In this document: positions 19,224 to 25,210 of the stretch, in pieces
Layout of the letters: every line of letters starts with the position of its first letter
Numbering within the stretch: the stretch's first letter is position 1
NCBI RefSeq assembly: GCF_000372845.1
Contig: NZ_KB889963.1
Coordinates: forward strand, 2,117,923-2,181,922
From: Methylocystis rosea SV97
Lineage (GTDB): Bacteria; Pseudomonadota; Alphaproteobacteria; Rhizobiales; Beijerinckiaceae
Direction: 5' to 3'
DNA: 64,000 nucleotides
Position numbers and translations under genes: made by a program
The notes under the pieces: generated by a model
Seen by the model: only the letters and a program-made list of their open reading frames with translations
Database searches by the model: none
What the model was told of the DNA's origin: nothing

Positions 19224-20486
19224 ATGACGCCTTTCCAAGCCTGGACCGGCAACCGGACCGTAAAAACGTTAGGAACCAACGCCGGTACGCCGGAGCTTTC
19301 ATTCCAATCATGGAAGCGCTTCAAGGAGGCTTTCGCTCCAGAGGTCATTGAGCGGGCGGTTCGCGAAACACCTGGAAAAGTGGAGTATTGCTTGGATCCT
19401 TTCGCCGGATCTGGGACCACTGGTCTGGCTTGCCAGTTTCTGGGCATTGATCCCTTTCTCTATGAAATAAATCCCTATCTCTGTGATTTAATAAAGGCGA
19501 AGCTATCTTCGTATAAGAATTCCGTCTTAAAGAGTTCGCTTGATAAGGTCCTTGATGAAAAAACAAAATTATCGGCAGCGGAAGTAAGAGCATATTTTAA
19601 ATATGCTCCAAAAACTTTTCTTCCGAATTCTGAAGTTGACAGTTATGTTTTCCCGATGGATGTCGCGAAAGAGCTTGTCAGTTTAAACCTATCTATCAAT
19701 AATTTGAGGCCAGGCCTTAGGGCATTTTTTCGGGCAATACTTGGTTCTGTTTGCGTTGACGTTAGTAATGTCACTATTAGTGGTAAGGGACGCAGGTACA
19801 GACGGAACTGGCGGGAACGACAATTAGATGCCAGCGAGGTAGGAGAGATTTATCAAGCTGCAGTTTTGACTGCGATTTCAGATGTAGATCACTTAGGTGA
19901 CTTAAAACACGGTAGATTCAAATTGTTCAGAGGCTCTTGTGTGACATCAATGACTACGTTACCCTATATAGATCTTTGCGTTTTTTCCCCACCCTACCCA
20001 AACTCATTCGACTATACTGATGTGTACAATGTTGAGCTATGGACGCTCGGGTATCTGCGTTCGAAGCATCAAAGTGATCGCTTAAGGCGCTCAACCTTTC
20101 CGTCTCATGTGCAGTTGAAGAGGACTTATGAACCTGCTCCCAATGGTTCACGATTGCTGGCGGAGGCTCTCATGTCATTGCAGGAAAAGCGTGACATTCT
20201 CTGGCATCGGGATATTCCTGCGATGGTTGGCTCCTATTTTGCGCAGATGGACAGTCTCCTTCGTGAAGTCGCGCGCCACCTCAGGAAGCGTGGTAGAGTG
20301 TACATGATTGTTGGCAACAGCCAGTATTCAGGAGTTATCATTGAGACTGGAAAAATAATTTACGAACTGTCCCGCAATTTGCCGCTTGATTTGCAGTACG
20401 TCGAGAGCTGCCGTTCTATGCGTACCTCGCCCCAGCAGGGGGGCAATCCATCCCTGGCGGAAAACCTACTTGTCTTTTCAAAGTAA
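19224..20486 (+). CDS. DNA methyltransferase (adenine-N6 or cytosine-N4 type)
   Basis: A 420-residue protein with the SAM-binding motif DPFAGSGTT at 58-66 and the catalytic motif SPPY at 255-258, with a region of about 190 residues between them. The order (SAM motif, then a possible target-recognition region, then SPPY) is that of alpha-class amino-methyltransferases, and SPPY fits N4-cytosine or N6-adenine methylation. No restriction endonuclease gene is next to it. The gene is markedly richer in A+T than the phage genes, indicating separate acquisition. It ends 9 bp into the convergent ATPase gene. It may protect host DNA from a nuclease or work with the operon opposite. Confidence 0.8.
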   Translation: MTPFQAWTGNRTVKTLGTNAGTPELSFQSWKRFKEAFAPEVIERAVRETPGKVEYCLDPFAGSGTTGLACQFLGIDPFLYEINPYLCDLIKAKLSSYKNSVLKSSLDKVLDEKTKLSAAEVRAYFKYAPKTFLPNSEVDSYVFPMDVAKELVSLNLSINNLRPGLRAFFRAILGSVCVDVSNVTISGKGRRYRRNWRERQLDASEVGEIYQAAVLTAISDVDHLGDLKHGRFKLFRGSCVTSMTTLPYIDLCVFSPPYPNSFDYTDVYNVELWTLGYLRSKHQSDRLRRSTFPSHVQLKRTYEPAPNGSRLLAEALMSLQEKRDILWHRDIPAMVGSYFAQMDSLLREVARHLRKRGRVYMIVGNSQYSGVIIETGKIIYELSRNLPLDLQYVESCRSMRTSPQQGGNPSLAENLLVFSK

Positions 20487-23003
20487 TCTGGTCCTCCTTT
20501 GTTCAACATACATTTTTTCTCTATTCCAGAAGTGCTCTGACCGACTTACGGACTGGCCGAAAGCCGATATGACTCGAATTTCGTAATTCGGAGCCTCGTC
20601 CTTAGTTTGCTTAGCCGAAACATCGAGATAAAAATCAGCTGAGTTAACAAGCGCTTGTAGCAAAGGCGCAATTCTATTATTCGCGATCCTGACGTCTAGC
20701 TGCAGAGATGGATCCTCTTCCATTCCGTGAACTGTAAAGTGCGTATGGGTCGCAACTACCGTAACTCCAACAACGCGCAGCATTTCGAACAATGTTGGCC
20801 AGAGCATCTTTGCCTCTTCTAACCTAGGAAATTGAAGAAAGACGTTGTGCAGCCCGTCGATAAGGATGCCCTCAAATTTCGCTCCCTGTAATTCAGCTGA
20901 TACAATCTTAGTCATTACCTTACTAAGAAATACCTCGGGAGCTAAAAATCCCGGGTAGAATGAGACTACATCAACCCTTGGATCGGCGGTCCTTTCATAT
21001 AGAGCGTCATGAAACTTGGATTTTTTAATCGATTCAGCTATACTTTGGTAGTATTCATCGGTGTATAGAAACGACACTACAAGAATTCGTCTACTAATTT
21101 TTGCTTTTTGATCTGGGTTTTCATCTAAAGGCCGCGGTCTGCCTCCTTGGCCACTTGTAAGAAGGCCTGAAGATAGAAGACGCAGCGCGAACGCGGCTTT
21201 GCCTGAGCTCCCGTTTCCTCCCAACAGCACTTGTGAGTGGTTAAATATGCGGACCAATGGTATGGTTACAGCAGTTGCCACGGGAACCGCAGTTTGTAAA
21301 AAATCATACCAAACATTCTTGTTGACGCTTTTCCACGAGTACGCGGCATAGGGTTCAAGCTGGGTTGCTATTTGTGGATATATTTTTACACCCTCATCGC
21401 GAGAGATATGAAAATGATGTGCGCCGGCAAAGCTTCTCTGCAGACGAGTCTTTTGTAATACAAATTTCCTTCTGGGTTCATCGCTTGAATTATGATCATA
21501 ATCGTGTTCAAGGGTGACGACGACGTCGACCACGTAGTTCAACTCACGAAGAGCCGGTTCATTAAGATCGGCCGACATGATGACTACTATCGCGCCAAGT
21601 TCTCTAAAACTCTCAACAAATGCCCGCATTCTGTTAACTTGATCTTCGCCAGGAAGACTCGGTCGTTTTAGTAGCTCGTGCACGCCGTCAAACACCACTA
21701 ACAGTGGCACGACCCCAGGTGGCCGATCAGTTGCCGGATCGATATCTTTAGATGTGTATTCCCTTCTCACCGAAGCTATGAACTGCTCTACCACCGCCAT
21801 ATTTTCGTCGGGAGCCCCCGCATCGATATGGTGTGCCTCGAACCAGTCCCGGATTTTCTTGTTAAACGAAACGGTTTTTGCCACGAATGGCGGAATAAGC
21901 GTGGTAAGGCGCCTCTCAAGGTCCTCTTTGTCCTCTTCGCAGGACAAGTAACATGTTGACATCCCTAAGGGGGCACAGGACGCTGCAAGGGCCAGCGCGA
22001 AAGACGTCTTTCCGCAGCCTGACGAGCCTGACACGCGCACTACTGTCCCGCGCCTCGTCGATGTTCTCAAGCCGCCATCGAAAATCGCCGCTGCCCCCGG
22101 CAGAGCAAGGGGTACCCCATCAAGTTGGTTTATGATTTCGGAGGGGGCGGGCATCCTGGTCAATTCGGGAACAAACCGAAACTCGTAAGAACTATTGCCC
22201 GGCAACAAAGTTGCTGCAGAGATAAATGCATCGACCCCCATAACGGGTTTCTCGTGAGCGCGCTGCGATTTGTATTCTGCCGAACTCGGAGCCGTGGTGA
22301 TCACGGCCAAGCCCTTGGACGCAAGCAGGTGGCCGACGATAAAATCCGTGGGGTCCGTGATTGGGAATGTGTCTACTTTCCGGCGGTAAGCAGCAGCTTT
22401 AGCAAGGGAATTCCCGATTTTTTCTAGTTGCAGATGGTGCCGAAGGATTTCGAAGAGGTCGGTTCCACCAGTAGTCGGTTTTGAGGCTGCTGCGAGCTGC
22501 ATTGCATCGGCGAAAATATGAGCCCTGATCAGGGCGTGCGCGTAGGCTTCGCTTGACGGGTAGTCTGGAGACGTCAGCATCTGGCGAAGGAAATACAAAG
22601 GAGATGGCAGGTAACGACGAGGGCGGTTTCCAGCTCCTCCCAGTTCGTCACTTCGTGTTCGTCGCGGGACCGCTGCGGCACTCTCGAATTGCTCACGCAT
22701 GACGAGGTACGGCCGGGTGATCCTTTCCTGGTCAGCTAGCTGGGCGTGTCCCATATGCCTAGCAGATGAAAACACACCTGCCGTGATGTGCGGATCAATT
22801 CTGGTGGGCAACCGTGAGAGCGGTGCGAAATGATCATTTACTTTGGCGATAAAATCATGACTCTGCCAGGAATCCGGAGGTGTTTCGAGGAATTCTTTCG
22901 CCGCCGCGAACCAACATGACCAAAGGACTTGACTCGCTTTCTCGAAGGGAACTGCTAGGAGGAAATCGCTGGGAGATAGAGGGCGTTTGATCACAATTAT
23001 CAC
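20478..23003 (-). CDS. Large KaiC/RAD55-like double-ATPase-domain protein
   Basis: An 841-residue protein from GTG 23003, which overlaps the upstream stop as GTGA; a TTG at 23027 would add 8 residues. Residues 1-270 are unrecognised. Domain 1 (about 300-560) is KaiC-like: Walker A GSSGCGKT at 326-333, an EE pair at 356-357 (LSCEEDKED) where KaiC has its catalytic glutamates, Walker B VVFDG at 436-440, and an RDEGVKIYP strand near 535. Domain 2 (about 590-800) repeats the fold, but its P-loop reads GGNGSSGKA, lacking the usual Ser/Thr, while ILIDGLH keeps a Walker B-like Asp. One active and one degenerate RecA-like domain suggest a regulated ATPase scaffold. The partners are unknown. GC content is low relative to the chromosome. 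Confidence 0.8.
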   Translation of the reverse strand: MIIVIKRPLSPSDFLLAVPFEKASQVLWSCWFAAAKEFLETPPDSWQSHDFIAKVNDHFAPLSRLPTRIDPHITAGVFSSARHMGHAQLADQERITRPYLVMREQFESAAAVPRRTRSDELGGAGNRPRRYLPSPLYFLRQMLTSPDYPSSEAYAHALIRAHIFADAMQLAAASKPTTGGTDLFEILRHHLQLEKIGNSLAKAAAYRRKVDTFPITDPTDFIVGHLLASKGLAVITTAPSSAEYKSQRAHEKPVMGVDAFISAATLLPGNSSYEFRFVPELTRMPAPSEIINQLDGVPLALPGAAAIFDGGLRTSTRRGTVVRVSGSSGCGKTSFALALAASCAPLGMSTCYLSCEEDKEDLERRLTTLIPPFVAKTVSFNKKIRDWFEAHHIDAGAPDENMAVVEQFIASVRREYTSKDIDPATDRPPGVVPLLVVFDGVHELLKRPSLPGEDQVNRMRAFVESFRELGAIVVIMSADLNEPALRELNYVVDVVVTLEHDYDHNSSDEPRRKFVLQKTRLQRSFAGAHHFHISRDEGVKIYPQIATQLEPYAAYSWKSVNKNVWYDFLQTAVPVATAVTIPLVRIFNHSQVLLGGNGSSGKAAFALRLLSSGLLTSGQGGRPRPLDENPDQKAKISRRILVVSFLYTDEYYQSIAESIKKSKFHDALYERTADPRVDVVSFYPGFLAPEVFLSKVMTKIVSAELQGAKFEGILIDGLHNVFLQFPRLEEAKMLWPTLFEMLRVVGVTVVATHTHFTVHGMEEDPSLQLDVRIANNRIAPLLQALVNSADFYLDVSAKQTKDEAPNYEIRVISAFGQSVSRSEHFWNREKMYVEQRRTRLL

Positions 23004-23824
23004 GCCACTATCTGAGCAGGACAACAATTCCTCTGCTGTCGGAATTGTGCTTGCTTTAAGATTGCACGTTGGACGGGCCCGCCCAACCTAAAAGTCGCAA
23101 CTTTTCGCGCCTCGGAACTCTCTTCCGGCGCTCTTGGGCTATCTTCGTGCATCGCGTTTCGAATATTCACTCCCGAGTAGGCTTCAATCGCGATCGCTAG
23201 AGATTTTCTTTCGTCATCGGCCTGAATAGCGCCTAGAATTTTCTTCATCCCGAGCACAAAGTGCTCGTTTCCGAGAGCTTTCATAAGATCCGGAATTCTC
23301 TTTCTTACTTCACTCCATGCAAGCCCGTGGTATTGAATGGCGTCTATGTATAAGCTCGTGAGTTCGCGGGGAGCGCCGACGAGCGCGACTCTTGCAAGAT
23401 CTAACCACAACCCTGGAGCTTGTGTTTTCAGGCCTTCTTCCTTACTCAAGCTCTTGATCGTTAACAGTCCTCCTAGATCCACAATGGTTCGTAGAATCCA
23501 GTAACGGGCCATCGGATCTGATGCAATTGTTGTATCATCAAGCAGCTTTTCAAGTGCCTCAGATAACGGCGGCGAATGTAGGTCCGTTTGCTTCGCGATA
23601 GCCCTGATCGCTCTCCAGGGATTCGGATCGCTTAGTGCAAGCCCTGGCACGATGGACAGCAGGGCTTCTTCAAGAGTGCCTAGAACGGGCTCTCCTTGTC
23701 GGCGTAGCTCGCCTATCAGTAAATCAAGAGTCGTAAAATCGTATCGATCGAGGGTACTCGTTCCCTGATCCGCTATGACATCAACAAGCCGGTTTCTAAA
23801 TTCGGTATAACTCATAGCACTCAC
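23000..23824 (-). CDS. Unknown helical protein, middle gene of the KaiC-like operon
   Basis: A 274-residue protein if translation starts at GTG 23824, which overlaps the preceding stop as GTGA; ATG 23815 is an alternative three codons in. It is mainly helical, with repeated Leu/Ala/Ile-rich segments (LLIGELRRQGEPVLGTLEEA, LWLDLARVALVGAPRELTSL) that could form a HEAT-like or TPR-like solenoid. The last 50 residues are charged and less structured. I recognise no family. The 4-bp overlaps on both sides make joint translation with the neighbouring two proteins very likely, and an adaptor or sensor role is inference. Confidence 0.7.
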   Translation of the reverse strand: MSAMSYTEFRNRLVDVIADQGTSTLDRYDFTTLDLLIGELRRQGEPVLGTLEEALLSIVPGLALSDPNPWRAIRAIAKQTDLHSPPLSEALEKLLDDTTIASDPMARYWILRTIVDLGGLLTIKSLSKEEGLKTQAPGLWLDLARVALVGAPRELTSLYIDAIQYHGLAWSEVRKRIPDLMKALGNEHFVLGMKKILGAIQADDERKSLAIAIEAYSGVNIRNAMHEDSPRAPEESSEARKVATFRLGGPVQRAILKQAQFRQQRNCCPAQIVA

Positions 23825-24570
23825 TCGGCGGGTTCAAACATAACTATTGGCAGCCGGAGGTCTCCAAAGGTAGGGGGAGCTACCACGACCTCTCGCAAGC
23901 CTCCCTGATTTTTGCATGGGTCTGGTCGTGACTCCAATGGCTTTGTCTCGCCCAGCGGTTCCCAAAGGTCCGCCAACCAGTCAAAATCGCAATCGAAAGC
24001 AGTTGGTCGGTAAGCTACTATTCCGGCCTCCGCAGCGCCAAAACTGATGCCTATGCAGGGAATCTTGGAAATCGTTAACCACGGGAGGCCAAGTCTCCAT
24101 GGCAAACACTCCGGCGATGCAAAAAGATCAGTTCCACCCTCATCCCGACGGAACAACCAAGACGGAGGGCGACCCAATCGACAGTCAGGATTGTGTCGCT
24201 CGGACACTACCTCACTCTCGAACCAGATGCGCGCCTCCTCTCGCTGCCGAGCTGTTCCATTGCCAGACAAGTGGTCTAGGCGCTCTTCGATGGCCTCAAT
24301 GTCCTGACCCGTTAGCGCTTGGAGCTGCTCTGCCGTTCGCCTGAAGGAGCGAACGTTTCCCAATGTCTCATCATCAGTTAGCTCAATCACCGGGCCTGAG
24401 AAGCGATTGCGTGCACTAAAATCAGCGAAAGCCGAAGCAACGTCCTCAAGGCGTGTCAGCGATTCGCACTGGTTTAGGAAAGCGGTCGTTAAGACTTCTG
24501 GAGCAGAGTGAGCTTCTAATTTGATATAAACGTGATCAGGAAGAATGTTGGGGCGCTGCGGTATTGGCAT
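23821..24570 (-). CDS. Unknown protein, first gene of the KaiC-like operon
   Basis: A 249-residue protein from ATG 24570, chosen because GAGGGAAA lies just before it and a promoter-like pair lies downstream of the upstream TTG at 24660. No family is recognised. The N-terminal third carries DHVYIKLEAHSAPEVLTTAF, the middle an acidic helical stretch, and the C-terminal third is rich in Trp, Phe, Pro and Cys (ECLPWRLGLPWLTISKIPC, DFDWLADLWEPLGE), which looks like a folded beta-rich domain. The final residues end in VMFEPAE. It starts the apparent operon and overlaps the second gene. Confidence 0.7.
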   Translation of the reverse strand: MPIPQRPNILPDHVYIKLEAHSAPEVLTTAFLNQCESLTRLEDVASAFADFSARNRFSGPVIELTDDETLGNVRSFRRTAEQLQALTGQDIEAIEERLDHLSGNGTARQREEARIWFESEVVSERHNPDCRLGRPPSWLFRRDEGGTDLFASPECLPWRLGLPWLTISKIPCIGISFGAAEAGIVAYRPTAFDCDFDWLADLWEPLGETKPLESRPDPCKNQGGLREVVVAPPTFGDLRLPIVMFEPAE

Positions 24571-24632: not shown

Positions 24633-24660
24633 GATATATTCCGCCGCTCTTTGAGTGCAA
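24633..24660 (-). promoter_or_regulatory. Candidate promoter of the KaiC-like operon
   Basis: On the minus strand, TTGCAC (24660-24655) and TATATC (24638-24633) are separated by 16 bp, a reasonable sigma-70-type pair. Transcription would begin roughly 55-60 bases upstream of the ATG at 24570, which favours that start over the upstream TTG. Confidence 0.45.
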
Positions 24661-25133
24661 ATTTCAGGAGATTAATCTAGGCAGGCACCGCGGGATACTG
24701 CGCAATTATGCGCGCCTTTTGATGAAGGACCAGGCGTCCGCGCGTTTGTTTGGGAATTGCGGCGCTGTACGCGGCCCATGCGACCTCAACATTATCCGCG
24801 GCAGCGACCACACGTGACGCTCCAACGTCGTCGATCGACGTCACGGTGAAGTTTAGGGCCCGCGTTGCCTGATGATCAAGCGAACTTGCGTAGCCCTCCA
24901 ACGCCATCGCGAGGAACATCGCCGTGTCGGTTCAAACCAGGTTGGCCGATATCGGCGCGAAATCTCTCCCGCGAGCCAGCGGGCATATTCGGCGGTGTTT
25001 TGGGGGATGCGGCGTCCGCTCGACATGGGAACAAAAAAAGAACATGCGTCATGCGCGGTCAAGCCGGCATTCGCTTCAGTGGCCATTTCAGTGGCCGCCG
25101 AAGACACCAAACTTGCTAAGCCATTGGGAACAT
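24661..25133. other. Non-coding boundary between operon and tRNA-Pro
   Basis: About 470 bp between the island operon and the tRNA. I see no integrase fragment. The only frames are short minus-strand ones (24677-24919, 24853-25110) that overlap each other in different frames. A small tandem repeat of CAGTGGCCATTT lies near 25078-25100. The attachment junction is expected at the tRNA end of this stretch. Confidence 0.5.
24677..24919 (-). CDS. Possible 80-residue hypothetical protein
   Basis: A short minus-strand frame with a plausible amino-acid make-up ([39 protein letters not shown]). It follows an in-frame stop four codons upstream and has no clear ribosome site. It could be a small gene upstream of the operon or the remnant of an older one. 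Confidence 0.3.
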
Positions 25134-25210
25134 TGGTCGGAGTGAGAGGATTCGAACCTCCGACCCCCTCGTCCCGAACGAGGTGCGCTACCAGGCTGCG
25201 CTACACTCCG
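25134..25210 (-). tRNA. tRNA-Pro (anticodon CGG)
   Basis: Read on the minus strand from 25210, the 77 bases fold as a tRNA: acceptor stem CGGAGTG pairing with CACTCCG, D-arm AGCGCAGCCTGGTAGCGC, anticodon stem CCTCG/CGAGG around TTCGGGA (anticodon CGG, proline codon CCG), T-arm with GGTTCGAATCC, and an encoded CCA end. The 3' end faces the prophage and cargo block, the usual orientation when a phage integrates into a tRNA gene. Confidence 0.96.

Follow-up and report, generated by a model that had tools for sequence, protein, structure and literature searches.

The window, a stretch of 64,000 nucleotides from the Methylocystis rosea SV97 genome, encodes a DNA methyltransferase (MTase) of the amino type and, on the opposite strand, three further proteins that we call A, B, and C (Table 1). 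The A/B and B/C junctions each have a four-base GTGA overlap, giving A-B-C the order of one minus-strand operon. The MTase gene and C are convergent, tail to tail, with a nine-base overlap of their 3' ends. Together the four genes form a cassette of 5.3 kb with a G+C content, in 1-kb windows, of 45-56% against 63-70% on the left side and 59-71% on the right. The coordinates, the GTGA overlaps, the convergent MTase, and the AT shift are all as the original prediction placed them. It also claimed a single operon promoter, which was not confirmed: no sigma70-like site is listed just upstream of A, a result of little weight for this host. The C start used here is the GTG overlapping the B stop; an alternative longer TTG form has 849 amino acids from position 23027, and A has an alternative longer TTG start at 24660. 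Between A and attR (24661-25130) are about 470 bases without a clear gene, holding a single ORF of 80 amino acids (24677-24919, minus strand).

Table 1. Features of the four-gene block, its surroundings, and related loci. Positions are those of the window unless a contig is named.
Feature	Position	Strand	Basis or remark
Terminator-like stem-loop	19077..19095	+	Separates prophage late genes from block
MTase, amino type, 420 aa	19224..20486	+	PF01555, PADLOC MTase_II, and motifs
C, KaiC-type tandem ATPase, 841 aa	20478..23003	-	
C residues 561-841, second, degenerate RecA/KaiC domain	20481..21323	-	Homologous to first domain
HNVFLQFP in C	20826..20849	-	Unchanged across the four members found before it became the search anchor
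Degenerate Walker A, second domain of C, GNGSSGKA	21195..21218	-	Motif comparison
C residues 286-560, first RecA/KaiC domain	21324..22148	-	Walker A GKT in 13/13 members
Walker A, first domain of C, GSSGCGKT	22005..22028	-	Motif comparison
C residues 1-285, N-terminal, mostly helical domain	22149..23003	-	Outside KaiC alignment; helices in predicted model
B, middle gene, 274 aa, GTG start	23000..23824	-	No family match
A, first operon gene, 249 aa, ATG start	23821..24570	-	No family match
tRNA-Pro(cgg)	25134-25210	-	Right of block
attR, part of tRNA-Pro	25134..25188		54/55 bases repeated at G000:C1:2095222-2095276
Serine recombinase (PF00239)	L027:15848-16393		
Serine recombinase (PF00239)	L103:12214-12768		
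Serine recombinase (PF00239)	L100:13891-14463		
Serine recombinase (PF00239)	L105:18836-19573		
Serine recombinase (PF00239)	L114:12998-13594		
Serine recombinase (PF00239)	L020:2836-3528		
Serine recombinase (PF00239)	L113:2813-4525		

The attR sequence has its other copy beyond the left edge of the window, at a distance of about 47.8 kb, the two forming a direct repeat of 55 bases with one mismatch. All nine proteins tested between the repeats match phage families in PHROGs (integrase, DnaB-type helicase, terminase, portal, head, minor tail, tape measure, tail fiber, and endolysin), and the same region is a viral record in IMG/VR. The predicted location on a prophage is borne out by the att repeat and by the integrase, terminase, portal, and tail genes. 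Because of these features we assign the block, from its sequence context, as cargo lying just inside attR in an apparently complete prophage.

KaiC is known as a circadian clock protein, with KaiA and KaiB as its partners. In Pfam, C matches the KaiC family (PF06745, 7.7e-13) in two stretches. The two corresponding domains are homologous to each other (hhalign E 4.8e-6) and in the predicted model the RecA-type tandem superposes on KaiC, in agreement with the double-RecA, KaiC-like ATPase first read from the sequence. Among 50 matches listed from a viral structure library, the named ones are mostly DnaB-, primase-, and RecA-type ATPases. The first RecA/KaiC domain is likely the active ATPase site, judging by its Walker A motif. 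Across the C members the Walker A of the second domain reads GKA in 12 of 13 and GKS in one, and DGxH follows both Walker B strands.

Neither A nor B has a match above the curated cut-off in Pfam, NCBIfam, PADLOC, or PHROGs; both remain the unrecognized proteins they were taken for. A profile of A gave only chance-level matches in the PDB (best E 0.14), and its predicted structure, made from an alignment of three sequences, had a pLDDT of 37.4 and was not used for any reading. No helix-turn-helix (HTH) is among the Pfam matches of the window B, and no nuclease or other effector domain was recognized by profile in the window A, B, or C. The MTase matches PF01555 (8.5e-12) and PADLOC MTase_II (9.4e-41), with DPFAGSGT at residue 58 and SPPY at residue 255. 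A motif of the SPPY kind suggests N4-cytosine as the modified base.

To find relatives, we searched at several depths. Outside the window's own genome, C had no match by tblastn in plasmid and phage records and A and B had none in plasmid records; the C proteins of two relatives added no further matches in plasmids and phages. In viral contigs, searched with single proteins and with a two-row alignment, the sole hit was the prophage record of the window itself. No relative beyond the own genome turned up among 385 sampled genomes of the class. Within the family, 10 of 149 genomes (nine others and the own genome) gave only generic KaiC, and the matches in the nine others were rejected, their reported alignments covering at most C residues 282-557. 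A joint A, B, and C query of 398 genomes of the phylum found a single syntenic operon, in G825, and two more loci, G935 and G1007, came from a two-sequence profile run on 397 genomes of the order. Identity of these three to the window is 28-48% for C, 25-30% for A, and 19-24% for B.

A first two-pattern scan of contigs gave 427 stretches and no relatives. The back-translated pattern HN[VIM]FLQFP, scanned over genome contigs, gave 54 stretches, nine of them true by profile HMM and 45 dropped. These nine loci, selected for the HNVFLQFP motif of C, are from Bradyrhizobium sp. 141, Hellea balneolensis, a Methylococcaceae bacterium, Hyphomicrobium sp. D-2, an uncultured Rhodobacteraceae, Pelagimonas phthalicica, a Brevundimonas sp., Undibacterium hunanense, and a Tropicibacter sp. 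A fourteenth C member, L129 (L129:5408-10202, IMGVR_UViG_3300032895_000190), does not match the motif and was reached through another pattern; it is on a viral contig, surrounded by genes for a phage tail sheath and a Mu-like baseplate. The spread is rare and patchy, with one genome in 218, one in five, and one in 12 in three families.

Homologues of the operon genes are linked in these genomes and not scattered, the point on which the original prediction had proposed to be judged. A-B-C has the same order in 11 of 13 neighborhoods, B being assigned by position only in two (G1228 and G1232). Profile HMMs detect A in 11 of the 13 loci and B in nine, four in each case being members from which the profile was built. 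Run on 394 genomes of the order, the A profile picked out the four that have C, plus one spurious match. This match, in G1132 (8.1e-5, with an internal stop), was rejected; its neighbors look like housekeeping genes and include no A, B, or C. Serine recombinase genes are near seven of the 13 loci, several just past the MTase.

An MTase adjoins C in nine loci and is one gene away in two, that is, in 11 of 13, or 11 of 14 with L129. It is convergent with C in eight loci and in the same direction in three. By our own count after joining split matches, the 13 genomes encode about 2-8 MTases each. The chance of immediate C-MTase adjacency is about 0.1-0.5% per locus with no correction for kinship, and that of 11 of 13 is 7e-29, a value that treats all 11 as immediate neighbors (nine are) and is likewise uncorrected for kinship. 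In the two loci with an intervening gene the MTase is of the C5 type. G825 codes for a Vsr-type endonuclease (L019:19200-19772, PF03852, 2e-28) directly after C and also for an Mrr_cat restriction gene (L019:13804-14904, 3.5e-21) divergent from A. In H. balneolensis (G1227) the intervening protein (L110:13191-13943) matches Eco29kI weakly (2.1e-4, below cut-off).

A homologue of the window MTase is beside C in four other loci. The amino-type MTases all have DPFxGSGT and SPPY (5/5) and the remaining MTases all have GPPCQPF (6/6). The C tree groups the five amino-MTase loci in one clade (100/99); the other clade contains all six C5 loci along with G1228, which has no MTase nearby. G1232 and L129, 43% identical, form a third branch (100/100). 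No MTase was found in the available DNA around G1228, G1232, and L129 (3 of 14 loci), the last two being without either family. From these alignments and trees, the module usually includes an MTase, of a class that goes with the ATPase clade. As three of 14 loci are without an MTase, licensing by methylation cannot hold for all. Trees of the MTases within each class are too weakly resolved to show co-evolution. The MTase is also not exclusive to the module, since plasmid relatives of it in Azospirillum brasilense and Burkholderia stagnalis (39-41% identity) have no C within 9 kb. Those plasmid relatives are beside large ATPases that by eye only look KAP-like and SMC-like (L116:8518-11825 and L117:8929-14559).

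In the A tree G825, which by C is in the C5 branch, groups with G935 and G1229 of the amino branch (100/100). The AU test rejects a single amino-MTase clade for A (p 2.4e-5), in conflict with the C tree, whereas for B it does not reject such a clade (p 0.26). The trees of A and B omit G1233 and G1227, whose upstream genes are not matches, the B of G1007 was trimmed there at an inner start, and G1234 was excluded from alignments A8, A9, and A12. Unrelated genes replace A in three loci. G1227 has an FAD-dependent oxidoreductase (PF01266, 7.8e-15) and G1233 an unrecognized gene of 278 amino acids, for which an ADP-ribosyltransferase, suggested by eye, was rejected with no Pfam, PADLOC, NCBIfam, or PDB match. 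L129 has a gene of 467 amino acids with a weak C-N hydrolase match (Pfam 0.029, below cut-off) and no relevant PDB match; E-K-C motifs are a C-N hydrolase signature, and the assignment was not retained as more than possible. At the B position, G1227 has a weak XRE-type HTH signal (0.0077, below cut-off) and L129 a MarR-type HTH protein (MarR_2, 4.6e-6). Because the A tree conflicts with the C tree and other genes take the place of A in three loci, the A position looks exchangeable on sequence grounds, and A is probably an exchangeable effector module.

Proximity to known defense genes had been named as a check in the original prediction. From the flanks of three loci ten proteins were tested, and two of them match PADLOC defense models, one TIR-like in Pelagimonas and one HTH in Hyphomicrobium; as evidence for a defense island this is thin. 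The TIR-like protein of P. phthalicica (L112:8841-10589, PADLOC ThsB, 2.9e-7) is encoded a few kb from the cassette.

A conserved A-B-C operon carried as prophage cargo, with a tandem KaiC-type C, an exchangeable A, and a class-matched MTase usually alongside, suits a defense system better than it suits a clock or housekeeping function, because the block is mobile and patchy, its MTase is clade-specific, restriction-type nuclease genes are sometimes added, and the first gene is exchangeable. We give an even chance to the block being a mobile, prophage-carried defense cassette of an undescribed type that is licensed by methylation, with C as the switch and A as the effector. In such a cassette the MTase would tag a short motif in the resident DNA. 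C would hydrolyze ATP in its first domain and probably form a KaiC-like ring, with the degenerate second domain and the N-terminal domain acting as a scaffold or sensor. C would be switched by unmarked incoming DNA or by a state that such DNA causes, B would couple C to A, and the step that harms or blocks would fall to A or its replacement. The branch without an MTase speaks against strict restriction-modification as a reading for all members and, in its own case, favors an infection-sensing switch.

That branch also bears on another reading, in which A-B-C is a superinfection-exclusion or abortive-infection unit of the prophage (ATPase sensor, adaptor, and exchangeable effector) that does not read methylation, the MTase being separate cargo that shields phage DNA from host restriction. 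The cargo position in an apparently complete prophage, the absence of an MTase from G1232 and L129 with L129 among phage tail genes, the differing genes in the A position, and the MTase relatives found without C are all consistent with it. We nevertheless consider it unlikely, as an MTase near C in 11 of 14 loci and of a class that tracks the C clade is unexpected for an independent gene. It is improbable that the block is instead an addiction module retaining the prophage or island, loss of the MTase exposing host DNA to A-B-C as in selfish restriction-modification: the MTase linkage and mobile context suit it, but three loci are without an MTase and no nuclease is recognized in A, B, or C, and such a module would be compatible with defense and not exclusive of it. 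A regulatory or timing unit, in which the KaiC-like ATPase, HTH-type partners, and the MTase set lysogen gene expression, could draw on the real KaiC tandem fold of C and the HTH signals at the B position of G1227 and L129 but is very improbable given the rare, patchy spread on mobile DNA, the restriction-type nuclease genes added in two loci, and a window B without HTH by Pfam.

Returning to the methylation-licensed cassette, a wider reading is possible, though we lean against it: a KaiC-type tandem ATPase may have been recruited as the central switch of immune cassettes carried by phages and islands, two branches being licensed by unrelated MTases whose class (amino or C5) goes with the ATPase clade, a third having none, with interchangeable upstream effectors (family A, an FAD oxidoreductase, and perhaps a C-N hydrolase). 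If true, KaiC has a branch acting as an immune switch. With the loci and profiles found here, genes at the A position can be surveyed more widely. Our literature search found no paper joining KaiC, methyltransferase, anti-phage, and effector; in text from PMC5512222 the terms KaiC, restriction-modification, and defense system co-occur.

Compared with KaiC and KaiC-like archaeal proteins, C has an extra N-terminal domain of 285 amino acids, is set apart by the degenerate second Walker A and the DGxH after both Walker B strands, and differs in being in an operon with A and B and beside an MTase. The set had been matched to no named system, and none fitted among the PADLOC models (for the MTase, the best 25 of 37). 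Type II restriction-modification is similar in that the window MTase belongs to the PADLOC MTase_II set and that the Vsr or weakly Eco29kI-like protein lies between C and the MTase in two relatives. It differs from the three linked genes with a large ATPase found here, and beside the window MTase no restriction endonuclease was recognized by profile in A, B, or C, A and B being without an assigned fold. The methylation-associated defense system (MADS), which has eight genes, also combines an MTase with a P-loop ATPase. PADLOC mad8 matches C weakly (1.9e-4) and mad2 matches the MTase of one relative weakly (1.9e-4), and no other model of the mad1-mad8 set matches the window A, B, C, or MTase (for the MTase, among the best 25 of 37). 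BREX is defined by the phosphatase-like protein PglZ, which neither Pfam nor PADLOC matched in the window proteins (PADLOC for the MTase, best 25 of 37).

DISARM (DrmMI and/or DrmMII, DrmA, DrmB, and DrmC) is likewise a multi-gene system, one that joins an ATPase core to an MTase of adenine or cytosine type, and MTases of two classes also occur here (PF01555 in the window and C5 in relatives). However, the ATPase here is a KaiC-type RecA tandem and not a helicase, and Pfam, read up to E 1 for the four proteins, shows no SF2 helicase (DrmA), DUF1998 (DrmB), or PLD. By gene content the block is not DISARM, BREX, or MADS. A passage of PMC9142583 describes the ATPase of DrmAB as lowered by methylated DNA. 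By analogy DISARM is the best comparison, and the cassette may follow the same logic, a methyltransferase with a methylation-sensitive ATPase machine, built from other parts. If so, methylation-licensed defense gains a machine besides DISARM and BREX, one in which the self-marking enzyme changes class with the ATPase.
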